A stretch of DNA of 48,946 nt from Gammaproteobacteria bacterium (GCA_030739975.1 JASLYC010000010.1:1-48946); one strand, 5' to 3'; shown: positions 14,540 through 48,946, counted from the stretch's first letter. Program-made: numbers and translations. The notes: generated by a model from the letters alone, not told the origin.

Positions 14540-14983
14540 TTATTTTTCTGGGATTGGAAGATAAGGCAACATTTCAACAACATGAGAGTAGCCATCTGCG
14601 CCAAGTCCAGCCACCACAGCATCTGCAGCAGGCGCCACAAATGTATTGTGCCTAAAAGACTCCCTTAAATGAGGATTCGAAATATGAAGCTCAATTTTGT
14701 ACCCAGAGAAAGACTTTAATGCATCATGGATTGCAATAGATGTATGAGTATAAGCAGCTGCATTTATGACGATTGCATCAATTTTATTTTTTATTGCATC
14801 CTGAATCCATCCAACCATCTCACCTTCATAGTTTGACTGCATAAACTTAACATCGATACCTTTTTTGTTCCCAATTTCAATACATTTTGTTGCAATATCA
14901 TCGAGCGTTTCATAGCCATAAATTTCAGGCTCACGGGTTCCAAGTAAATTTATGTTTGGACCATTAATTACGTATACTTTCAT
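14540..14983 (-). CDS. aroQ: 3-dehydroquinate dehydratase type II
   Basis: Third enzyme of the shikimate pathway, dehydrating 3-dehydroquinate to 3-dehydroshikimate. The ORF track starts 48 bp too early: the family start is MKVYVINGPNINLLG at 14983, giving 147 residues. The catalytic residues are in place: R17 and Y22 in GTREPEIYG, the His in ELHISNPHLRESFR, and N and H in VINAAAYTHTSIAI. The upstream aroQ-like gene ends 4 bp before this start, so the two are translated together. Confidence 0.95.
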   Translation of the reverse strand: MKVYVINGPNINLLGTREPEIYGYETLDDIATKCIEIGNKKGIDVKFMQSNYEGEMVGWIQDAIKNKIDAIVINAAAYTHTSIAIHDALKSFSGYKIELHISNPHLRESFRHNTFVAPAADAVVAGLGADGYSHVVEMLPYLPIPEK

Positions 14984-14987
14984 AATA

Positions 14988-15455
14988 TTATGCAACTTTG
15001 TTAAGTTTTTTTGAAATAGCATTAATAGCAATTACATAACTATAAACACCAAGACCACTCACAAAGCCCATTTGGCCTTCTGGCACCTGCAAAGGTTTTG
15101 TTATGTCCGCGCCCTGCTTGAAAATATTTGCAATGTGCACCTCTATTACTGGCTTCTTCTGAAGGGTCAATGTTTTAATGGCAAGACAGTGTTTTGCAAA
15201 TTCTGCAGTTAATGCGTGAGAATATCCTACAGGATTAATAATGACCGCATTAAAATCTTCGGAGTCTTTAAGTAAAAAACCGAGCAGCTCATCCTCATCA
15301 TCAGTTTGACGAAAATCTAACTCAATATTTAGGCCTTTACAAACATTTTTACATTTCTCTTTTATTGCGCTAAGAGTAATCTCTCCATAGAATTCATCAT
15401 AAATGCTCAAGTCTGCCAAACCTGGGCCATTCAAAATTAATAATTTGTTTTTCAT
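14988..15455 (-). CDS. Degenerate AroQ-like paralogue
   Basis: 155 residues with the same fold pattern as AroQ: LLILNGPGLADL at the start, AVIINPVGYSHAL in the middle, VIEVHIANI later, and GLGVYSYVIAI near the end. Substrate-pocket residues have changed. GPN became GPG, the lid LGTREPEIYG became LSIYDEFYG so the catalytic Arg is gone, QSNxEGE became RQTDDEDE, and the Arg of the HLRExFR segment is lost. The lid Tyr and the EVH His remain. It is first in a two-gene unit with aroQ. It may be a regulatory or assembly partner of AroQ, or an enzyme with a different substrate. I do not know a name for it. Confidence 0.8.
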   Translation of the reverse strand: MKNKLLILNGPGLADLSIYDEFYGEITLSAIKEKCKNVCKGLNIELDFRQTDDEDELLGFLLKDSEDFNAVIINPVGYSHALTAEFAKHCLAIKTLTLQKKPVIEVHIANIFKQGADITKPLQVPEGQMGFVSGLGVYSYVIAINAISKKLNKVA

Positions 15456-32406: not shown

Positions 32407-33168
32407 CTAGATAGCTAGGTACTGAGCCCTAAGCTCTTCGTTATCTAAAAGTTCTTGAGCTGTGCCATCAAAAACAATCTCTCCATTATCAAGTATCAAT
32501 GCCCTGTCAGCAAGCCTAAGTGCTGCAACAGCATTCTGCTCAACAATAATAGTTGTTATTCCGAGCTTCTTAATGTCAATAAGAATACTTTCAATTTCCT
32601 GAACAATAACAGGGGCGAGACCTTCGTAGGGCTCATCAAGAAGCAATAACTTAATATCACGGGCTAGCGCTCTTGCTACCGCAAGCATTTGTTGTTCTCC
32701 GCCAGAGAGAGTGGCCCCGTCTTGGTCTCTCCTTTCTCCTAGCCTTGGAAAGTGTTCATATATTCGCTCAGTTGACCAACCAACTGGCTCCTCTATCTGG
32801 GCCAATTTTATGTTCTCTTCAACAGTAAGGCCTCCAATAATACATCTATCTTCTGGCACTAAGGCAACACCCCTTTGGGCGACCTCAAAGTCCTTCATTG
32901 TATGTAATGGTTCATGGTCAAGCCAAACTTCTCCGCCTCTAAGTTCTGGCTCAGTTGCACGGGCAATTGAGCGGAGAGTGCTTGTTTTCCCAGCACCATT
33001 TCTTCCGAGAAGCGCTACTATCTCGCCCTCACGGATATCAAAGTTAACACCCTGAACAATATAACTCTCGCCATAATATGAATGCAAATCCCAACAAGAA
33101 AAAAAAGCCGGGTCTGAGCCTGTAGTTTTGGTTGTTTGGAGTACAGGTGCTACCTCATTAGAAGTCAT
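32407..33168 (-). CDS. livF: Branched-chain amino acid-type ABC transporter ATPase LivF
   Basis: One of the two ATPases of a Liv/Urt/HAAT-type importer, 253 residues. Motifs are Walker A GRNGAGKTST (about residues 55-64), signature LSGGEQQML, Walker B LLLLDEPYEGLAP and the H-loop VEQN. YEGLAP and VEQNA mark LivF rather than LivG. It carries an N-terminal extension of about 20 residues before FSCWDLHSYYG. It overlaps livG by 4 bp. The transported substrate cannot be decided from the ATPase. Confidence 0.93.
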   Translation of the reverse strand: MTSNEVAPVLQTTKTTGSDPAFFSCWDLHSYYGESYIVQGVNFDIREGEIVALLGRNGAGKTSTLRSIARATEPELRGGEVWLDHEPLHTMKDFEVAQRGVALVPEDRCIIGGLTVEENIKLAQIEEPVGWSTERIYEHFPRLGERRDQDGATLSGGEQQMLAVARALARDIKLLLLDEPYEGLAPVIVQEIESILIDIKKLGITTIIVEQNAVAALRLADRALILDNGEIVFDGTAQELLDNEELRAQYLAI

Positions 33169-33929
33169 AATTCGGCACCCCCCAAATATGCCTCTCTAAC
33201 CAATGGATTAGCCTTAATCTCATCTGGTGTACCTGTTGCAATAATTGCACCTCTTGCTAATACAGAAATTTTATCTGCAACACTAAAAACCACATGCATA
33301 TCATGCTCAATAATGATTTTTGTCATTCCACCTTCCTTAATTTGTTTCAGTAGTTCAATAGTCTGGTTTGTATCATGCCTAGCCATTCCAGCTGTAGGCT
33401 CATCCAACAATAATAGCTCTGGTTTCTGCACCAAACACATAGCTAACTCAAGCCTACGCTTATCGCCACGAGATAAGCTTGACGCTATAGTATCTTTTCT
33501 GTCTAGCATTCCTATAGTTTCTAGTGCACCGATTGCTTCATTTTCAATTTCCTCTTCATCAGAAAGACTCTTAAAAATTGACATCTTATATGATCCATCA
33601 CGCTTAGAAAGCGCTGGCAACATAACGTTTTCAAGTAGGCTTAAGTCAGGAAATATTTCTGGAGTTTGAAAAACTCTTGTAAGTCCTATTTGGTTAATTT
33701 GATGGGGCTTTTTGCCAATAATCTTTTCTCCCCCATTAAAGGTAACTTCTCCAGTATCAGGAGCAAGTAGTCCGACACAAACATTAAGTAAAGTCGATTT
33801 TCCAGCGCCGTTAGGTCCAATTATTGCATGCACCTTACCTCTCTCAATCTCTAAATTAATGTCGTTAAGTGCAAGTAAACCTCCAAAAGATTTGTTTACA
33901 TTTTCTATTCTTAATACGGTTTCAGCCAT
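33165..33929 (-). CDS. livG: Branched-chain amino acid-type ABC transporter ATPase LivG
   Basis: Second ATPase of the importer. The start at 33929 ([17 protein letters not shown]) fits the family better than the track start 27 bp earlier and gives 254 residues with an 8-bp overlap with livM. Walker A is [11 protein letters not shown], the signature is [12 protein letters not shown] where many ATPases read LSGGxQ, Walker B is [12 protein letters not shown] and the H-loop is IEHD. TAGM and EHDM are typical of LivG. The SRGDKRR signature form is also found in UrtD-like proteins. Confidence 0.93.
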
Positions 33930-35070
33930 CACTTGACTCCTTTGCAGTAGCTTCACTTTCTTCTATATTTTTCTTATTCATTATGCTATCTTTAATTCTC
34001 TGCAACCCCTCCATAACTCCGCCTGGTAGGAATATAACAATGAGCATAAATAGCAATCCCAAAGTTAAATGCCATCCCTCGCCAACAAATGGCATTGTTA
34101 ACGATGTTAGAAGGCTCTCTCCCCATTGTGGCATAAATGAGAAAAAATTATTTAGTACTGATTCGTTTATTGAAGAAAAAATATTCTCCAAATATTTGAT
34201 TATTCCTACACCAAGTAGAGGCCCATATACTGTGCCAACTCCGCCAAGAATTGTCATTAATATGACCTCTCCAGAGGCTGTCCATTGCATCCTCTCCGCT
34301 CCAGCTAGTGGGTCAGTTACTGCCATTAAGGAGCCTGCCAAACCAGCAAACATGCCAGAAATGACAAATGCAGTAATAAGGTAAGGTCTTGTATCGCTTC
34401 CAATATATTTCATTCTCTTCTGGTTGGACTTTATTCCTTTAAGTTTCATACCAAAAGGTGACCTAAAAATTTTCAAATAAATGAAAAAAGCTAAAATAAG
34501 CATAACCGCACAAAAATAAAATCCTGAATAGCCATTCATTGAAATCCCGAAGAAATCTGTAGAGGGTAGTCCTTCAGGTACTTCTCTAGAGAATGCCACA
34601 TCTATAACTCTTGGGTCATGCATTGTTAATTGCAATCCTGTCTCTCCATTAGTAATTGGCATCAGGACAGAGTATGCAAGGTTATAAAACATCTGGGCAA
34701 ATGCAAGTGTCAGAATAGAGAAATAAATTCCTGACCTTCGTAAACTTACATAGCCTATCCCGGCAGCTATAATTCCAGCCATCAAGATAGAAAAAAACAT
34801 CGCCGGAATGACATTCATAGTTAATAATTTAAAAGACCATACAGCAGTATATGAGCCAACCCCAAGAAAAACTGCATGCCCGAAAGATAGATACCCAGTC
34901 AAACCAAATAAAATATTATAGCCAATAGCAAAGATTCCAAAAATGGCAAATTTTTGTAAAAGGTCAGGATAATTTGCACCAATAGGGTCAAGCCATATTG
35001 GCATAGACAATACTGCTGCAGTAAATATTAACATTGTCGTTGCAATATTTTGTTTTTTAAATATGTTCAT
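33922..35070 (-). CDS. livM: ABC transporter permease LivM
   Basis: Inner-membrane permease, 382 residues and about ten spans. The family segments are [25 protein letters not shown] (about 50-74), [14 protein letters not shown], and [19 protein letters not shown] near the C-terminus, with the EAA-like loop that contacts the ATPases. The C-terminal end is polar ([18 protein letters not shown]-type). It starts 2 bp after livH ends and overlaps livG, so subunits are made from one message. Confidence 0.93.
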
Positions 35071-35072
35071 AA

Positions 35073-36089
35073 TTATTCATCCATGACGCCTTTGCGTCCC
35101 ATTAATCCTCTAGGCCTAGTTAATAGAACAATAACTGCAACTAAGTATATGATTATCTGTTCTATTCCAGGTAATATACTGCTTACTGCTGTCATTGCGG
35201 CCAAAGACTGAAGAACTCCGAGAAGGAATCCAGATGCTACAGCACCTCTAAGTGAGCCCATACCCCCAACAACTACTATCACAAATGAAATTACTAAAAA
35301 GTCCATTCCCATATGATAATCTGGAGGCAAAATAGGTGCATACATCGCTCCCGCAACACCTGCAACGATAGCTGCTAATGCAAAAATTATAGTAAACTTT
35401 CTTTGTATATTGATACCTAAAAATCCTACCATTTGTCTATCCGCCATACCAGCACGGACAACCATTCCAAAGGTTGTTAGGTTTAAAAAAGAAAAAACAG
35501 CCGTAATAATTCCAACAGAAGAGATAAGATAAATTATTCTCCACCAAGGATAAACTAAAGTATCTCCAAGGCCTATCCATAAACCAACTTGTGCCGAACC
35601 AGATACAATGTCTGGGGCTGGTGTTGGGATAGGGTTAGCTCCATAGAAATGACGAATAATTTCTTGCAACACAATTGCCAAACCAAAGGTGACTAAGATC
35701 TGTTCTGCGTGCGACCTTTTATAAAAAAACTGTATTAAGCCACGCTCCATTGCAAGTCCAACCAGTAGCATAATAGGCACCGCAAAGAATAATGATAGTG
35801 GAACGGCGTAGTCTATAATTGCTAGGCCCGTATCTCCCATCCATATCTCTAGATATGGTTGCTCTATATATGCATCAAAATATGTAATATTTGGGTCTAA
35901 GATCTTCTTCGAAATTGTGACCACTTTTTGAAAACTGACCGCACAAAATGCGCCGATCAAAAAAAGTGCTCCGTGAGCAAAATTTACTACACCGAGCGTA
36001 CCAAATACAAGCGTCAAACCTAGCGCAATAAGGGCATATGCAGCACCCTTGTCTAGGCCGTTTAGTAATTGAATTAAAATTGCATCCAT
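35073..36089 (-). CDS. livH: ABC transporter permease LivH
   Basis: Second permease, 338 residues. Typical segments are [40 protein letters not shown] and [20 protein letters not shown]. Compared with short LivH proteins it has an insert of about 40 residues after the second span (around 60-100), seen in some homologues of this importer class. It is preceded by an 81-bp gap containing a strong hairpin, so it is probably expressed at a lower level than the binding protein. Confidence 0.92.
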
Positions 36090-36125
36090 GATAAATATGT
36101 ATTAACGAAATAACAATAACAAAAA

Positions 36126-36155
36126 ATGCTGGTCGCGATTTCTCGGGACCAGCAT
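36126..36155 (-). terminator. Hairpin between binding-protein gene and livH, probable partial terminator
   Basis: ATGCTGGTC (36126-36134) pairs perfectly with GACCAGCAT (36147-36155) around a 12-nt loop. On the transcribed minus strand the stem is followed directly by TTTTTT. It lies 16 bp after the binding-protein stop. Such intercistronic hairpins commonly let the binding protein be made in excess over membrane subunits, by partial termination or 3'-end protection. The effect here is inferred. Confidence 0.8.
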
Positions 36156-36170
36156 AAAGTATATATCAAA

Positions 36171-37511
36171 CTATACTTTGTATGGACCTAGTTCACCACC
36201 AAAGATAGATGCATCGTACTCAACATCGGCACGAGGAACTTCTTTAACAATGTCAAGCAAGTCGTAAGAACTTGTAGGGTTTTGGTTACCACGCACAACA
36301 AGAACATTCTTGAAGCACTGGTGGTCTTCAGCGCGATACTCTGTTGCACCGTTACCCATACCATCAAACTCAAACCCTTCAAGCTGTCTAATAACTTCAG
36401 GCGGATAGAAGGTTCCTGCATTTTCACATGCATTAGCGTAAAGTAAAGTTTGCACGTAACAAGTCTGAGCTGCCATTGAAGGTGGGAATCCGTATTCCTT
36501 ACCAAAAGACCTAACGAAAGCCTTAGAGCCTTCATCCTGTAACTGCCAGTCCCAGTTTGCAGTACCAAGAATACCTTTCAGGTTATCTCCAGCACCTTGA
36601 GCCATCAAACGAGAGTATAGAGGTACGATGATCTCAAAATTCTTTCCTTCAACTTGCTTATCACGTAAACCAAACTGAACTGCCTGAGTTAGTGAGTTAA
36701 TCATATCCTTACCGTAGTGGTTAAGAATAAGCGTATCCGCACCAGAATTCAATACAGGCGTAATGAATTGTGAAAAGTCTCCTGCACCAACCGGGGTTCT
36801 AACTTTTGCAGTTGTTGACCATCCTAAGCCTTCAGTAGTTTCTTGAATAGATTGCTCTTGAGTCCATCCCCATGTATAGTCAGCTGTTAAATGGTAAGCC
36901 TTGCGTTCAGTACCCATCTCATCCTTTAATACTGGACCTAAAGCAGAACCAGACATCTTAGCATTAAAGAAGTGACGGAAACCATAACGACGCTTATCTT
37001 TACCTGTAGTATCGTTAGAGTGTGTTAATCCAGCCATAAATACAACGCCAAGCTCTTGAGCTAAACCTTGAACAGCAATAGCTACACCAGATGAAGAGCC
37101 TCCAGAGAACATAATGACGCCATCTTTCTCAATCATACGTTTTGCCGATGCACGTGCTGCATCAGATTTGGTCTGTGTATCACCAGTTACGTAAGTAACC
37201 TTTTTACCTAGAATACCATTGCCACGAAGATTCATTGGCTTCATAGTATTCATCATGCCGCCATCACCCTCACCATTTAAATGCTTAACAGCCAATTTGA
37301 ACGCTCTTAATTCATCAGCGCCCTCGTCAGCGTATGCGCCTGTCTGTGGGACATTAAATCCTAAAGTAACACTAGATTTGTAGCCAGGATCATTAGTGAA
37401 ATTTGCAGCATATGCGCCCTTAGAGAAAACCATAGGTGCAACGGAAATAGCTGCTCCAGTCTTAATAGCTTGTCTACGGGTTATAATGTTTTTATTTGAT
37501 TTATCCTTCAT
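36171..37511 (-). CDS. Tat-exported substrate-binding protein of the Liv-type ABC importer
   Basis: 446 residues. The N-terminus TRRQAIKTGAAISVAPMVF is a twin-arginine signal (RR at 12-13), with probable cleavage after GAYA near residue 35. The mature part is a type I periplasmic binding fold (Peripla_BP_6/LivK-like) with GFNVPQTGAYADEGADELR and SGGSSSGVAIAVQG. It is longer than LivK (about 370) and nearer the size of UrtA/FmdD-type proteins. The ligand may therefore be an amino acid, urea or a short amide. First gene of the importer operon, with a strong AAAGGAGAG ribosome-binding site. Confidence 0.88.
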   Translation of the reverse strand: MKDKSNKNIITRRQAIKTGAAISVAPMVFSKGAYAANFTNDPGYKSSVTLGFNVPQTGAYADEGADELRAFKLAVKHLNGEGDGGMMNTMKPMNLRGNGILGKKVTYVTGDTQTKSDAARASAKRMIEKDGVIMFSGGSSSGVAIAVQGLAQELGVVFMAGLTHSNDTTGKDKRRYGFRHFFNAKMSGSALGPVLKDEMGTERKAYHLTADYTWGWTQEQSIQETTEGLGWSTTAKVRTPVGAGDFSQFITPVLNSGADTLILNHYGKDMINSLTQAVQFGLRDKQVEGKNFEIIVPLYSRLMAQGAGDNLKGILGTANWDWQLQDEGSKAFVRSFGKEYGFPPSMAAQTCYVQTLLYANACENAGTFYPPEVIRQLEGFEFDGMGNGATEYRAEDHQCFKNVLVVRGNQNPTSSYDLLDIVKEVPRADVEYDASIFGGELGPYKV

Positions 37512-41533: not shown

Positions 41534-42826
41534 TTAATAGTGGTAGTTTAGCTCTATCCCGACCCTCTCATATCCATCTAAAATGCTAAATTCTCTGTCT
41601 GAACTTGCAATAATTTTGGTCCCATTAATTGACGAAGACCACTGATCACTAATATCCCAATCAATGCCAGTTGATAGTAATTTCATATCACCATTAGAGG
41701 TAGAGGATGCCAAAATATTCCACTTATAGTCACTGTTATCAAAAGTATCATTAACGCTCAAAGAGTAACTTAAGTTGTGCCGCCTTGTGCTAACATTTTG
41801 AGTCAGGGTTGGTGTTAAAAAATCTGAATAATAATCAACTAAATGTTTTGAGTTAATTGTAAATAGCCATTGCCTGTCTTCTTTTTGCCTATCTAGAGCA
41901 ATACCCCAATCAATTCTATCAACACTTACAAGACTGCCTGAACGATTATGCTTTAGATTATTTTTATATGCAATGTCATATTTAATTAAGTAGCCTTCTA
42001 TAGCCTGATTGGCACTATAACCCAGCAACTGATAAGGGTGCGCTTTACTATCGCCATTGGCGATATCTTTTAGTGCGCTGTTTGGCACTAACCTTGCTAA
42101 GTATATTGAGCTATCTCCAACATCATCTTTCAGGTCAAATCTCAGACCAAATTCTGAGTTAGACTTGTCATTCAAGTTAACGTTTGCAATCTTTGTGATG
42201 TTTGGACTTTGATTATAAAACAAACTCAGGTTTGAGTTGTTCCAATAACGAGTGGTGCTTATTAACCACTGCGATTCTGGTATTGGATCAGTCAAGCTAG
42301 CAATTGGATTTATAACATCTAGGGGTCCGCCCTCAATCTCGCCCCACCCGATTGTGTATTTTCCGAGTTTAGTGCTCCATTTTTCTGAGCTGAACTGTGT
42401 AAATGCACGCTCAACTTCAATGTCGCTAATTTCTGTAGCATAACTTGAATCATTTGGCCAATAGCGCTTAGCATTTATTTGTAGTTCGCCATAACCTGAC
42501 CTTGGCAATAAGCCTTTAATATCCAGTGTCAGTTCAGTCCTTTGTTTTGTTGTTTCCCAGTTATCTGCAGGATTAACTGACAATTTATGTGACAACTTAA
42601 CCCCTAGACCAGGATACTTATTATTGTTAGTCTCTTCAGCTTCAAAGACGTCGTCACTGTCACTATAACTATCTAGCTCCTGCTCAACAGAGTCAAAAGA
42701 CAATTCATCTTTAAATAAAGATTCTTCTGCCATGACTGTTGGGACACTAAAAAAGTAATATAAAAAAAATAAACTGGCAACACCACTAGCGCATACTTCA
42801 CATTTTTTATACTTAAGTTGTGACAT
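41534..42826 (-). CDS. Outer-membrane beta-barrel protein of an RND/LolA-like export operon
   Basis: 430 residues with a signal peptide (hydrophobic 14-30, probable cleavage VMA-EE near residue 33), then an acidic Asp/Glu/Ser-rich linker of about 35 residues. About 350 residues of alternating beta-strand pattern follow, ending in an aromatic terminal strand GIELNYHY suitable for BAM recognition. Segments such as GYGELQINAKRYWPN and KLGKYTIGWGEIEGGPLDVINP recall DUF1302 or alginate-export-like barrels found next to MMPL exporters. Last gene of a three-gene unit, 26 bp after the LolA-like gene. Substrate unknown. Confidence 0.82.
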   Translation of the reverse strand: MSQLKYKKCEVCASGVASLFFLYYFFSVPTVMAEESLFKDELSFDSVEQELDSYSDSDDVFEAEETNNNKYPGLGVKLSHKLSVNPADNWETTKQRTELTLDIKGLLPRSGYGELQINAKRYWPNDSSYATEISDIEVERAFTQFSSEKWSTKLGKYTIGWGEIEGGPLDVINPIASLTDPIPESQWLISTTRYWNNSNLSLFYNQSPNITKIANVNLNDKSNSEFGLRFDLKDDVGDSSIYLARLVPNSALKDIANGDSKAHPYQLLGYSANQAIEGYLIKYDIAYKNNLKHNRSGSLVSVDRIDWGIALDRQKEDRQWLFTINSKHLVDYYSDFLTPTLTQNVSTRRHNLSYSLSVNDTFDNSDYKWNILASSTSNGDMKLLSTGIDWDISDQWSSSINGTKIIASSDREFSILDGYERVGIELNYHY

Positions 42827-42852
42827 CGTGTTATTTCTAGTTCATGTAAAGC

Positions 42853-43773
42853 TTATTTGGTTTGCCCTCTAAGGTCGATTAAATATTTCTCACGAAATGC
42901 TTGGTCAGTTAAGGCTCTTTGGGTTAAAAAGGAAGGCTCAATGTTAATATTAAAGTTTATTGCTTCAATTTTCATGTTAGTTAATCTCTGAGTTACCAAG
43001 TTCATGAAAGTTAAACTACGCGACATCCATATATCGTTTATTTTTTCAACTTTACCTGCATCTAGTTGCTTTATTGGTTTTTTGTTTTTGTCAAACATTT
43101 GCATCTTTAGAGTTATAAATCTATCAAGGTCAATCCATGACCTAGTTTTGCCGTAACGACTTTTGTTTAATCTATGTGGCTTCGGTGTTGACTCAATAAT
43201 AGCAACACTACGACCTCTAAACTTGCCTTCACCTAAAATTTTATAACTATAGTCATCTAGTTTCCCGGTTTCCTGATCCTCTATAGTTATTTCAGTACCA
43301 AACAGGCTTGCTGATTCTGTTTCTTCATCATCATTACTGCTCGTACTCATACGTTTAACTTTGCCCAAAGCAGAAAGATAAATCCAAGTTTCATTATCTC
43401 TGTCACTATCATCATAAGTAAAAGAAAGCATGCCGATACCTCTCTCGTTTGCTGGCTCTAAAATAATTGCTATTGACTTAACATCTTTATTATTGAGCCC
43501 AGTATTTACTTGAGCACTTTCAACAACCTTTATTCTAGCTTTTTTTGCACATTTTAATTTACCGCTGCTGATTCCGTATTTACAGGTAGTTAGAATTATT
43601 TTAGTAAATGCTGAGTCGGTAGTTTTGCGACGTGATTCATCGGCAAGTTCAGCTATCTCGCGAGCACTTAAATTTGTTTTTGCATTAACATCTATACTAG
43701 TAATAATTAATACAAACACCAATAAAATTGGTGTCGCTAAACTATATATATATTTGCTTGATAAAGGACCCAT
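42853..43773 (-). CDS. LolA-like periplasmic outer-membrane lipoprotein-sorting family protein
   Basis: 306 residues with a signal peptide (span about 11-27, cleavage VNA-KT near 31). The mature protein reads as the LolA/LppX half-barrel family (the LolA_like group often annotated as outer membrane lipoprotein-sorting protein). Typical segments are RGIGMLSFTYDDSDRDNETW, WIYLSALGKVKRM and SWIDLDRFITLKMQMFDKN. The fold binds acyl chains in a hydrophobic cavity. Here it would carry a lipid or other greasy cargo from the RND pump to the outer-membrane barrel. Its ATG shares a base with the exporter stop, showing coupling. Confidence 0.85.
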   Translation of the reverse strand: MGPLSSKYIYSLATPILLVFVLIITSIDVNAKTNLSAREIAELADESRRKTTDSAFTKIILTTCKYGISSGKLKCAKKARIKVVESAQVNTGLNNKDVKSIAIILEPANERGIGMLSFTYDDSDRDNETWIYLSALGKVKRMSTSSNDDEETESASLFGTEITIEDQETGKLDDYSYKILGEGKFRGRSVAIIESTPKPHRLNKSRYGKTRSWIDLDRFITLKMQMFDKNKKPIKQLDAGKVEKINDIWMSRSLTFMNLVTQRLTNMKIEAINFNINIEPSFLTQRALTDQAFREKYLIDLRGQTK

Positions 43774-46442
43774 TACTTAACCTCACTAAAGTTCAAATTT
43801 TCATCTATATTTTGTTGCCCAAATTTAGGCTTAAATATCATAATCAGCGCTGGAAAGAATAACAAGTCGCACAACAACGCCACAAAAATTGCCAGAGAGC
43901 CGAAGTTTCCAATTTTCGCTAATCCCAAATGGTCGCTAAAGCTTAGCATATAAAACCCACACCCCAAAATAAGCGTAGTAAAGGTGACAGCCTGGCCAAC
44001 CTCTTTTATTGTATTGATTAGAGCTAGTCTCATATTGCTATTTACTGCCAGGGCCATCCTATAGTGAGTTATAAAGTGTATTGTATCGTCAACAGCTATA
44101 CCTATAATTAGCGGTGCAATTAATAATGTATCTGTATCGAGCGGTATACTAAGTAGCCCCATCAGACCGAACGCTAAAGTTGCAGGTATAAGGTTTGGTA
44201 TTATTGACAATAGTCCTGCCTGAACTGAACCCAAGGTCAAAACTAACAGTGAACTTATCACAACAACTGCAACAGCCAAACTCTTGAATTGATTGCGACT
44301 TAGGTTGTCAGCAAGTTTCATCATCAGGGCAAAAGTACCTGTAATTTCCACTTGCATATCTGGATAACGTGTTTTTAGAGCCAAGAAACCATTATCAATA
44401 TCTTTTTTAATTCCCTCGAAGAAGTCTTTATATTCGTTTGAACCGGCATTCTTCAATGTAACACTTATATGTGTCTTAGAGTAATCATCACTAACCAAAG
44501 CTCTACGGTCTTCAGGGTTTGCACTATTAAATAGATATAACAATTGAGACACTGCAATTTGTGAGTCTGGAATGGTGCGGTATTGCTCGCTACCTCTCAT
44601 AATTTTATGCGTATCTTTAACTAAATTTGCTAATGAATTTGTACGAATAATATAATCATATCTCATTTGTATGTTGTCCTGCAATTCACTGATTGCCTGC
44701 AAAACTTTTGGATCCATGACAGCATCTGACTCTCCCATATCAATCATAATAATCATGCCTCCAGTTCCCATCATATGTTCATCTACAATGTCATATGCTG
44801 CCCTTATAGGTACATCTTCAGAGAACAATTCTACAAGGTTGGAGTCTATTTTGACCTGTGTAGCGCCATACAAACATATCCCGAATACTCCTACAAATAA
44901 AGCCACTAGGCTGTATCTTCTCTTAAAAACCAGTGCTGGAATTTTATCTAATAGTGGCTGTAACCATGCCGCACTAAAAAGCCATGTGAGGCCTGATAAA
45001 TTGGATATATATTTTATCGGCTGAAAAATAAAATTAATAATCCGTGAAGCCAATTTTTTGTATTTACTTAAAAGCCCAACATGACTGCTTGGTTCGGCCA
45101 TAGGGTGCCAGTAGTCCAATAGAACCGGTAATAAATATATAGTGTAAATAAATGCTAGGCCTACCCCAGCTGCAGAAGATATGCCAAAAACAATGAACTG
45201 CTCCATCCCAGTAACAGACATAGAAGCCATCCCGGCCATTGTTGTTATTGTTGTTAATAATATAGGTACCCCAGTTTTTCTGTATGCATGACTGAGCGCC
45301 TGATTATGATCTTCCCCATCTCTTCGAAAGAAGATGTAGCTACTCATAACGTGTACGCAATCTGCAACGCCAACTGCTACAATGAGCATGACTGTTAGAG
45401 TTATAAGTGAAGATGACTCTATATCTAACCAGCTAAGAGTTCCAAGAACAAACATAATGCTCATCCCAATTGCTAACTGTGGCAAAACAACCGCACTAGC
45501 GGAACGAAACAGTGTCCAAAGCAGTAAGTTTATTATTACAACCATACCTATAAGTAAATAACCTGCATGTATCATTGTGTCCCACGCAAGCTCAATCATA
45601 GAGGCCCCGCCTATTGGATAAAAGTCAAAATTTTCTAATAGATGTGGTTGGCTATATATTGCAGATATTGCGGGCATAAATGTGAGATAAATAGCTGGAT
45701 CCATCTCCTCAAACTCAATCTTATTTACGGTTGCGAAATCATCAACTGTAGACTCGAAACTGTCATAAGAGCTGTCCCACTCATCATCCAGGAATAGGTT
45801 GCCAGTCTCATCAACTGGGGAAATCTTTGGAATAGTTCCAAAATCAGTAGTAATTGATATGGCTCCAAATCTATAGTCTTTGGAAAACATAAATAGTGGT
45901 AAGTTGGTTTGTGAACTGGCTAGTGACTTTATCGTATTGAGTGTCTCTGTGTCACTTGGTATATCTTTGGGAACTAATAGTGGAGCACTCAATACATCGT
46001 CATTATTCTGCTGTATACGTATATTAGTTAACGATTGAACACGCTTGATGTGCTTTAGTTCATTGTATTCTTCAGGCTTTAGCCCAAACTTATCGACCCA
46101 AACTCTATCATCTATATCGTCAAGATTATTTAGAATATTAGTAATCTCAGCAACCAGCGACAATGAGTTGTGTGAAAACACGTCCCCGTCTTTTGCTTCA
46201 TAAACTATGAACAGGCCATCGTCACTGCCGAACTGTTCACGAAACTCGTCAAGAGACTCTAGAGCCTTATCTCCCTTCTGGAACCATGACTCTATAGAAA
46301 AATTAAAGCTAAATTGACTAGTGCCAATAGCCATAAAAACGGTTGACAGTAGGGCGAATAAAATAACTGTCTTACGGTACGATCGTAACTTATTTGGAAC
46401 TTCACTAAAATATTGATTAAAGCCTAGTAATAAACTTTTCAT
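43773..46442 (-). CDS. RND superfamily (MMPL-type) exporter
   Basis: 889 residues in two pseudo-repeats: span at about 26-44, a periplasmic domain to about 285, five spans (290-440), a cytoplasmic/amphipathic linker, a span at about 510-527, a second periplasmic domain to about 715, and five spans to 870. Proton-relay segments are VGVADCVHVMSSYI (357-370) and GIAVDDTIHFITHYR (781-795). This is the MMPL/HpnN-like architecture, which moves lipids or hopanoids, not the AcrB drug pump, and no membrane-fusion protein or TolC is present. First gene of the trio with the LolA-like and barrel genes. Confidence 0.88.
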   Translation of the reverse strand: MKSLLLGFNQYFSEVPNKLRSYRKTVILFALLSTVFMAIGTSQFSFNFSIESWFQKGDKALESLDEFREQFGSDDGLFIVYEAKDGDVFSHNSLSLVAEITNILNNLDDIDDRVWVDKFGLKPEEYNELKHIKRVQSLTNIRIQQNNDDVLSAPLLVPKDIPSDTETLNTIKSLASSQTNLPLFMFSKDYRFGAISITTDFGTIPKISPVDETGNLFLDDEWDSSYDSFESTVDDFATVNKIEFEEMDPAIYLTFMPAISAIYSQPHLLENFDFYPIGGASMIELAWDTMIHAGYLLIGMVVIINLLLWTLFRSASAVVLPQLAIGMSIMFVLGTLSWLDIESSSLITLTVMLIVAVGVADCVHVMSSYIFFRRDGEDHNQALSHAYRKTGVPILLTTITTMAGMASMSVTGMEQFIVFGISSAAGVGLAFIYTIYLLPVLLDYWHPMAEPSSHVGLLSKYKKLASRIINFIFQPIKYISNLSGLTWLFSAAWLQPLLDKIPALVFKRRYSLVALFVGVFGICLYGATQVKIDSNLVELFSEDVPIRAAYDIVDEHMMGTGGMIIMIDMGESDAVMDPKVLQAISELQDNIQMRYDYIIRTNSLANLVKDTHKIMRGSEQYRTIPDSQIAVSQLLYLFNSANPEDRRALVSDDYSKTHISVTLKNAGSNEYKDFFEGIKKDIDNGFLALKTRYPDMQVEITGTFALMMKLADNLSRNQFKSLAVAVVVISSLLVLTLGSVQAGLLSIIPNLIPATLAFGLMGLLSIPLDTDTLLIAPLIIGIAVDDTIHFITHYRMALAVNSNMRLALINTIKEVGQAVTFTTLILGCGFYMLSFSDHLGLAKIGNFGSLAIFVALLCDLLFFPALIMIFKPKFGQQNIDENLNFSEVK

Positions 46443-47690: not shown

Positions 47691-47808
47691 GCCTAGCAAT
47701 GTCCTACTCTCACATGGGGAGACCCCACACTACCATCGGCGCTAAGTGGTTTCACTTCTGAGTTCGGGATGGGATCAGGTGGGTCACACTTGCTATTGTC
47801 GCTAAGCA
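47691..47808 (-). rRNA. rrf: 5S ribosomal RNA
   Basis: Minus-strand sequence of about 118 nt. Its ends pair (GCTTAGC with GCTAGGC), and the conserved core is CCGAACTCAGAAGTGAAAC, then GCGCCGATGGTAGTGTGGGG and CCCCATGTGAGAGTAGG. It lies 217 bp downstream of 23S with no tRNA between. Confidence 0.97.
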
Positions 47809-48025
47809 TACTGGTTGTCTGACAATGAAATATAATTCAAGCCAAACGAAATTAAAAGTTTTTATACCGCCACCTTTTGGTGGGACATAACAAAAAAATA
47901 CACGAGCAAAGTTTGTAATCACATTTTAAAAGTTAAAAATGAATGTTGAAAAAACATCAAGTTAACTTATTTATTGGCATATTGCCATTTGACACAACAA
48001 CATCTCCAAATAGTTTGGGTGTTAT
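47809..48025 (-). other. 23S-5S internal transcribed spacer
   Basis: 217 bp of A+T-rich spacer without a tRNA or ORF. It holds one clear hairpin, CCACC-TTTT-GGTGG (47870-47883), which may be a processing or antitermination element of the rrn transcript. Confidence 0.7.

Positions 48026-48946
<921 letters not shown>

Follow-up and report, generated by a model that had tools for sequence, protein, structure and literature searches.

The window analysed here, a 48,946-nucleotide stretch of gammaproteobacterial DNA (GCA_030739975.1 JASLYC010000010.1:1-48946), carries three adjacent genes, all intact by ORF calling and all on the minus strand, which encode an RND pump, a LolA-like carrier and a predicted outer-membrane barrel (Table 1). 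At the junction of the first two genes, TAATG, the carrier start lies inside the pump stop with a 1-bp overlap, and a GAGG is found just 5' of this start, while carrier and barrel are spaced by 26 bp. Both the tight spacing and the identity of the three parts had been claimed in a first-pass annotation of this DNA, and the junctions, family matches and predicted features agree with it. A promoter scan around the trio returned matches at a frequency no higher than chance.

Table 1. Coordinates of the trio and of features within its products
Feature	Position in window	Strand	Basis
Inner-membrane RND pump, MMPL/HAE3 type, 889 aa	43773..46442	-	ORF, Pfam, NCBIfam, PDB match
Charged membrane motif GVADCVHV, first RND half, putative proton-relay site	45348..45371	-	Analogy to RND pumps
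Charged membrane motif IAVDDTIHF, second RND half, putative proton-relay site	44073..44099	-	Analogy to RND pumps
Periplasmic LolA-superfamily carrier (PF17131), 306 aa	42853..43773	-	ORF, Pfam, alignment, AlphaFold/Foldseek
Carrier insertion with two Cys (C64, C75), possible disulfide	43549..43584	-	Alignment
Predicted outer-membrane beta-barrel, remote DUF1302 relative, 430 aa	41534..42826	-	Profile searches, hhalign
Acidic N-terminal tail of mature barrel, EESLFKDELSFDSVEQELDSYSDSDDVFEAEETNNN, conserved F/D positions	42620..42727	-	Alignment, charge counts

Upstream, the trio is flanked by a PfkB-family kinase gene, and downstream by genes for an acyl-CoA (propionate/acetate-type) ligase and a nitroreductase-like protein. 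Given these neighbours, the trio lies outside any biosynthetic cluster, as the first-pass annotation had stated; an aryl-polyene-like cluster was ruled out, since the flanking genes are housekeeping or unrelated and vary among genera. Likewise, no membrane-fusion or TolC gene was found next to the trio among the window ORFs, which upholds the earlier exclusion of an AcrAB-type pump. A third MMPL gene of this genome (C37) is also located among housekeeping genes. An rRNA operon lies about 1.2 kb upstream from the pump gene and is cut off by the contig end, with 5S rRNA and the 3' part of the 23S rRNA gene at positions 47691-48946. Elsewhere in the window, by eye, two adjacent ORFs both resemble type II dehydroquinase (14540-15455), and a five-gene Liv/Urt-type ABC importer has a Tat-like signal on its binding protein (32407-37511).

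Features of the three proteins

The pump matches PF03176 MMPL twice (E 5e-34) and shows 12 hydropathy peaks, taken as 12 predicted transmembrane segments; together with charged residues in both halves, these features assign it to the MMPL/HAE3 branch. The charged motifs GVADCVHV and IAVDDTIHF are putative proton-relay sites by analogy to other RND pumps. Its best NCBIfam match, TIGR00921 HAE3 (E 2e-60), scores 204 bits against a cut-off of 351.9, so the pump is HAE3-like and not a curated HAE3 member. The best PDB match is HpnN (6wu0, E 3e-13), likewise an HAE3/MMPL pump, but the window pump scores only 71 bits against the cut-off of 1100 of the NCBIfam HpnN equivalog, has carrier and barrel partners, and comes from a genome (about 87% complete) in which no match to squalene-hopene cyclase (PF13243) was found. 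Because of the low HpnN score and the lack of a cyclase match, hopanoids are an unlikely cargo, and hopanoid export was rejected.

The carrier matches PF17131 LolA_like (E 8e-42; 143 bits against a gathering cut-off of 30), with PF07044 DUF1329 as a weaker second match, and it has a signal peptide and a C-terminal helix extension. An AlphaFold model built from 37 sequences (mean pLDDT 85.7) predicts a LolA-superfamily fold with a LolA-type half-barrel. In a Foldseek search the model was closest to LolA3 of P. gingivalis (9tp6, target-normalised TM 0.92), to the DUF1329 protein 4z48 and to 3bk5, whereas LolA, RseB and the lipid-binding LprG were more distant. Identity to LolA3 and 4z48 is about 25% or less, and the window carrier differs from both by its Cys-pair insertion and C-terminal helix; the literature consulted on these two proteins links neither to a pump. 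The LolA3 crystal structure contains a hydrophobic groove (PMC13103446), and by analogy to it the modelled carrier would have a hydrophobic ligand groove as well. A strand-parity test for a hydrophobic face, a crude within-strand shuffle, was non-significant (p = 0.27). Carriers of the window clade share the insertion, in which C64 and C75 may form a disulfide, with those of Bermanella and Saccharospirillaceae, whereas the carriers of a second trio described below lack it. In a plasmid collection, we found only distant carriers (about 22-28% identity).

Searches of Pfam and NCBIfam gave no match for the barrel, PF06980 included. However, a profile built from DUF1302-type barrels of other loci only retrieved it among 2,846 ORFs (E 6e-10), and hhalign against the DUF1302 barrels of the second trio gave a probability of 96.6%. 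The L128 barrel, a close relative from the window trio's pump clade, scores above the PF06980 cut-off (E 4e-7), and the window barrel and DUF1302-type barrels have the signature G(R/K)...WG(E/K)...D..NP in common. By these comparisons, the barrel is a remote DUF1302 relative. It begins with a signal-like stretch, its strands are amphipathic (p = 0.004 against within-strand shuffles), and its C-terminal residue is Tyr. The AlphaFold model consists of strands only and is of low confidence (pLDDT 52.8); the barrel assignment is therefore based on homology, amphipathic strands and the aromatic C-terminal residue, and the model is too poor for pore size or a lateral gate to be judged. A fold search that placed general porins on top (TM < 0.5) started from this low-confidence model and was discarded.

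Conservation, fusions and the acidic tail

The first-pass annotation had treated neighbourhood comparison as a test that could overturn the grouping of the three genes, and with two exceptions the grouping withstood it. In nearly all of about 25 related loci of the Thioglobus/Pseudothioglobus group the trio stayed together, in unchanged order, while its flanks changed, from SerS and SecDF downstream in one genus to the acyl-CoA ligase and nitroreductase in the window's own genus. It is also kept in Bermanella and Saccharospirillaceae and is present in streamlined genomes of 1.2-1.7 Mb without linked biosynthetic genes. Its distribution in the family is patchy: in one sister genus (g3) the carrier was found in 6/6 genomes, and several close genera lack the trio. 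The exceptions were two loci, L061 and L063, in which pump and carrier are kept and the barrel is lost; neither barrel type was found elsewhere in these two genomes. Although usual, the barrel is thus not an obligatory part, and it can be dispensable or replaced. Genes for a 2OG-Fe dioxygenase, a class-V aminotransferase and an Lrp/AsnC regulator take the barrel's place in L061 (11763-14206). Carrier and barrel of the closest relative of the window (L059/L039) are separated by a pterin-4a-carbinolamine dehydratase gene (L059:6417-6758).

The window's genome contains a second, independent trio of pump, carrier and DUF1302 barrel (contig C63, L046:7278-11837), which recurs in other and sister genera of the family. 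Just upstream of it, in opposite orientation, is a trimethylamine methyltransferase-family (MTTB) gene, and downstream are two genes for U32 peptidases.

Across the class, PF17131 was found above cut-off in 77 of 143 sampled gammaproteobacterial genera. From this list we took 40 carrier loci, mostly from its upper part, so that the sample is biased towards good matches. The order pump-carrier-barrel occurred at 21 of 37 detected carriers (20 with separate genes and one with a pump-carrier fusion followed by the barrel), and all three genes occurred in another order at 4 of the 37. The trio is consequently not the isolated oddity as which it first appeared but a widespread cassette with published relatives. 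Two further loci (L085:5596-12277 and L086:5532-12382) show a different arrangement, with a distant MMPL pump and barrels of 645-660 aa found by the DUF1302 profile just downstream.

Among Oceanospirillales, six Bermanella-family loci encode pump and carrier as a single fusion protein of 1058-1086 aa, as does one other gammaproteobacterium, and the barrel gene comes directly after it. The fusions show an extra hydropathy peak, consistent with a transmembrane segment, between the pump and carrier domains, which would place the carrier domain in the periplasm. No other observation argues as strongly for joint action of pump and carrier as these natural fusions. In a quick tree of 60 pumps, with long branches flagged by the program, three groups were resolved: pumps of the fused type, those of a large, widespread type, and a moderately supported group of 22 (SH-aLRT 84) that brings the window trio together with its relatives from Oceanospirillales and with the DUF1302-type second trio.

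The tree also bears on the acidic linker at the mature N-terminus of the barrel, which had been noted as a further unexplained feature. The linker is real: 30 residues of the tail, which is rich in F and D/E, have a net charge of -12, whereas no segment of that length from about residue 90 onwards goes beyond -5. It is not peculiar to this gene, though. All strongly acidic tails (net acidity of at least 9 in 30 residues) belong to the window's pump group, including Bermanella, and the other two groups contain no such barrel; the pumps of the fused loci form a clade of their own, and no such tail is present on the barrels of these loci. The tail is thus a feature of one pump clade, a pattern for which we found no description in the literature searched. 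We speculated that it acts as a periplasmic tether that catches the loaded carrier at the barrel, parallel to the pump tether of the fused clade, but consider this quite unlikely. The window carrier is basic (pI 9.4), whereas carriers of the sister genus are near neutral although their barrel tails are equally acidic, which weakens simple charge docking. As a general rule, docking of a basic carrier on the acidic tail was rejected, since the net charge of carriers does not vary with the tail.

Published relatives and possible functions

Systems of the kind to which the window trio belongs are widespread and have been proposed before. The AmeABCD cassette of Castellaniella defragrans, deletion of which reduces monoterpene tolerance, likewise combines an HAE3 RND pump, a LolA-superfamily periplasmic protein and a DUF1302 outer-membrane protein (PMC6394551). 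It differs in that AmeB is of the larger DUF1329 type (451 aa versus 306 aa for the window carrier), AmeA has 605 aa (PMC6394551), and the cassette has a fourth, YCF48-like member, AmeC, whereas the window trio consists of three genes and comes with no terpene genes. An AmeC-type YCF48/COG4447 protein (PF14870) was not matched in the window genome, which is about 87% complete, or in three relatives. By its description, the system of a DUF1302 barrel, a DUF1329 carrier and an RND transporter proposed for P. putida is similar. Its genes PP_0765/PP_0766/PP_2018/PP_2019 are required for growth on Tween 20, and AlphaFold co-folding, from which the single transport system was proposed, weakly predicted contacts of the carrier with both pump and barrel; unlike the window trio, they are split over two loci and include an extra periplasmic protein, PP_2018 (PMC10866462). 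In Thalassolituus oleivorans, TOL_3187/TOL_3188, with MMPL and LolA-like domains and an adjoining porin-like gene, are strongly induced on the n-C28 alkane (PMC6304351). Here pump and carrier are one protein rather than separate genes, and we infer from its domain description that TOL_3187 belongs to the fused clade. Marinobacter AupA/AupB were dropped as relatives, as their paper mentions neither LolA nor MMPL/RND. By analogy, the published relatives point to hydrophobic substrates and differ on direction.

Based on these findings, we consider it fairly probable that the trio forms a carrier system across the envelope for a hydrophobic cargo, probably a lipid or a compound resembling one, with both direction and cargo class inferred. 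Driven by protons, the pump would transfer the cargo from the inner membrane to the carrier, which would shield it in the half-barrel groove while crossing the periplasm. The loaded carrier would then dock at the DUF1302-type barrel, presumably in this order and possibly with the acidic tail as docking site, and the barrel would insert the cargo into the outer membrane or release it outside. MMPL pumps are generally exporters, and HpnN moves its substrate outward; for this reason outward traffic is, by analogy, somewhat favoured over uptake. The tolerance evidence for AmeD also indicates outward movement (PMC6394551).

Those same characterised pumps argue against the reverse reading, in which the barrel admits a hydrophobic nutrient such as a long-chain alkane or fatty ester, the carrier brings it inward, and the pump loads the inner membrane or energises release. 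The alkane induction of TOL_3187/TOL_3188 with their porin (PMC6304351) and the Tween 20 requirement in P. putida (PMC10866462) would fit such uptake too, and Bermanella falls within the acid-tailed clade. Nevertheless, a search for AlkB/desaturase-type enzymes detected none in the window genome or in two genomes of the sister genus, and we regard uptake, although the chief rival to export, as unlikely; at about 87% completeness of the window genome, such gene absences are soft. Somewhat better placed, though still improbable, is a role in envelope maintenance, with an ordinary membrane lipid (a phospholipid, or a lipid freed in outer-membrane repair) as cargo moved between the membranes, which is as much a narrower reading of the trans-envelope carrier system as a rival to it. 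The presence of the trio in streamlined genomes without linked biosynthetic genes, the wide spread of PF17131 and the lack of a cyclase match, with hopanoids thereby an unlikely cargo, are consistent with it, but a core route would hardly be absent from several close genera.

Removal of toxic hydrophobic compounds would make the trio a counterpart of AmeABCD, whose three shared protein classes and tolerance phenotype (PMC6394551) suggest this, as does the occurrence of DUF1302/PF07044/COG1033 genes in aromatic-degradation regulons (PMC6449761). We think it quite unlikely, since the AmeC-type protein was not found in the window genome or the three relatives and the loci have no hydrocarbon catabolic neighbourhood. 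Finally, the PF17131 family name, 'outer membrane lipoprotein-sorting protein', would suit a side branch of lipoprotein sorting, with the carrier serving lipoproteins as a genuine LolA and the pump there by coincidence. That is very improbable: LolA3, the closest solved homologue, hardly binds LolB (PMC13103446), and the carrier is naturally fused to MMPL pumps and strongly linked to pump and barrel genes.

Our data imply that pump-carrier-barrel cassettes are very common in gammaproteobacteria, streamlined ocean bacteria included, and they are mostly unstudied. With at least three clades, of which the window trio represents one, and with natural fusions and a clade-specific tail, they provide a test case for MMPL delivery of hydrophobic molecules to the outer membrane without a TolC-type tunnel. 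The acidic-tail tether, if true, would be a handover mechanism in envelope lipid traffic.
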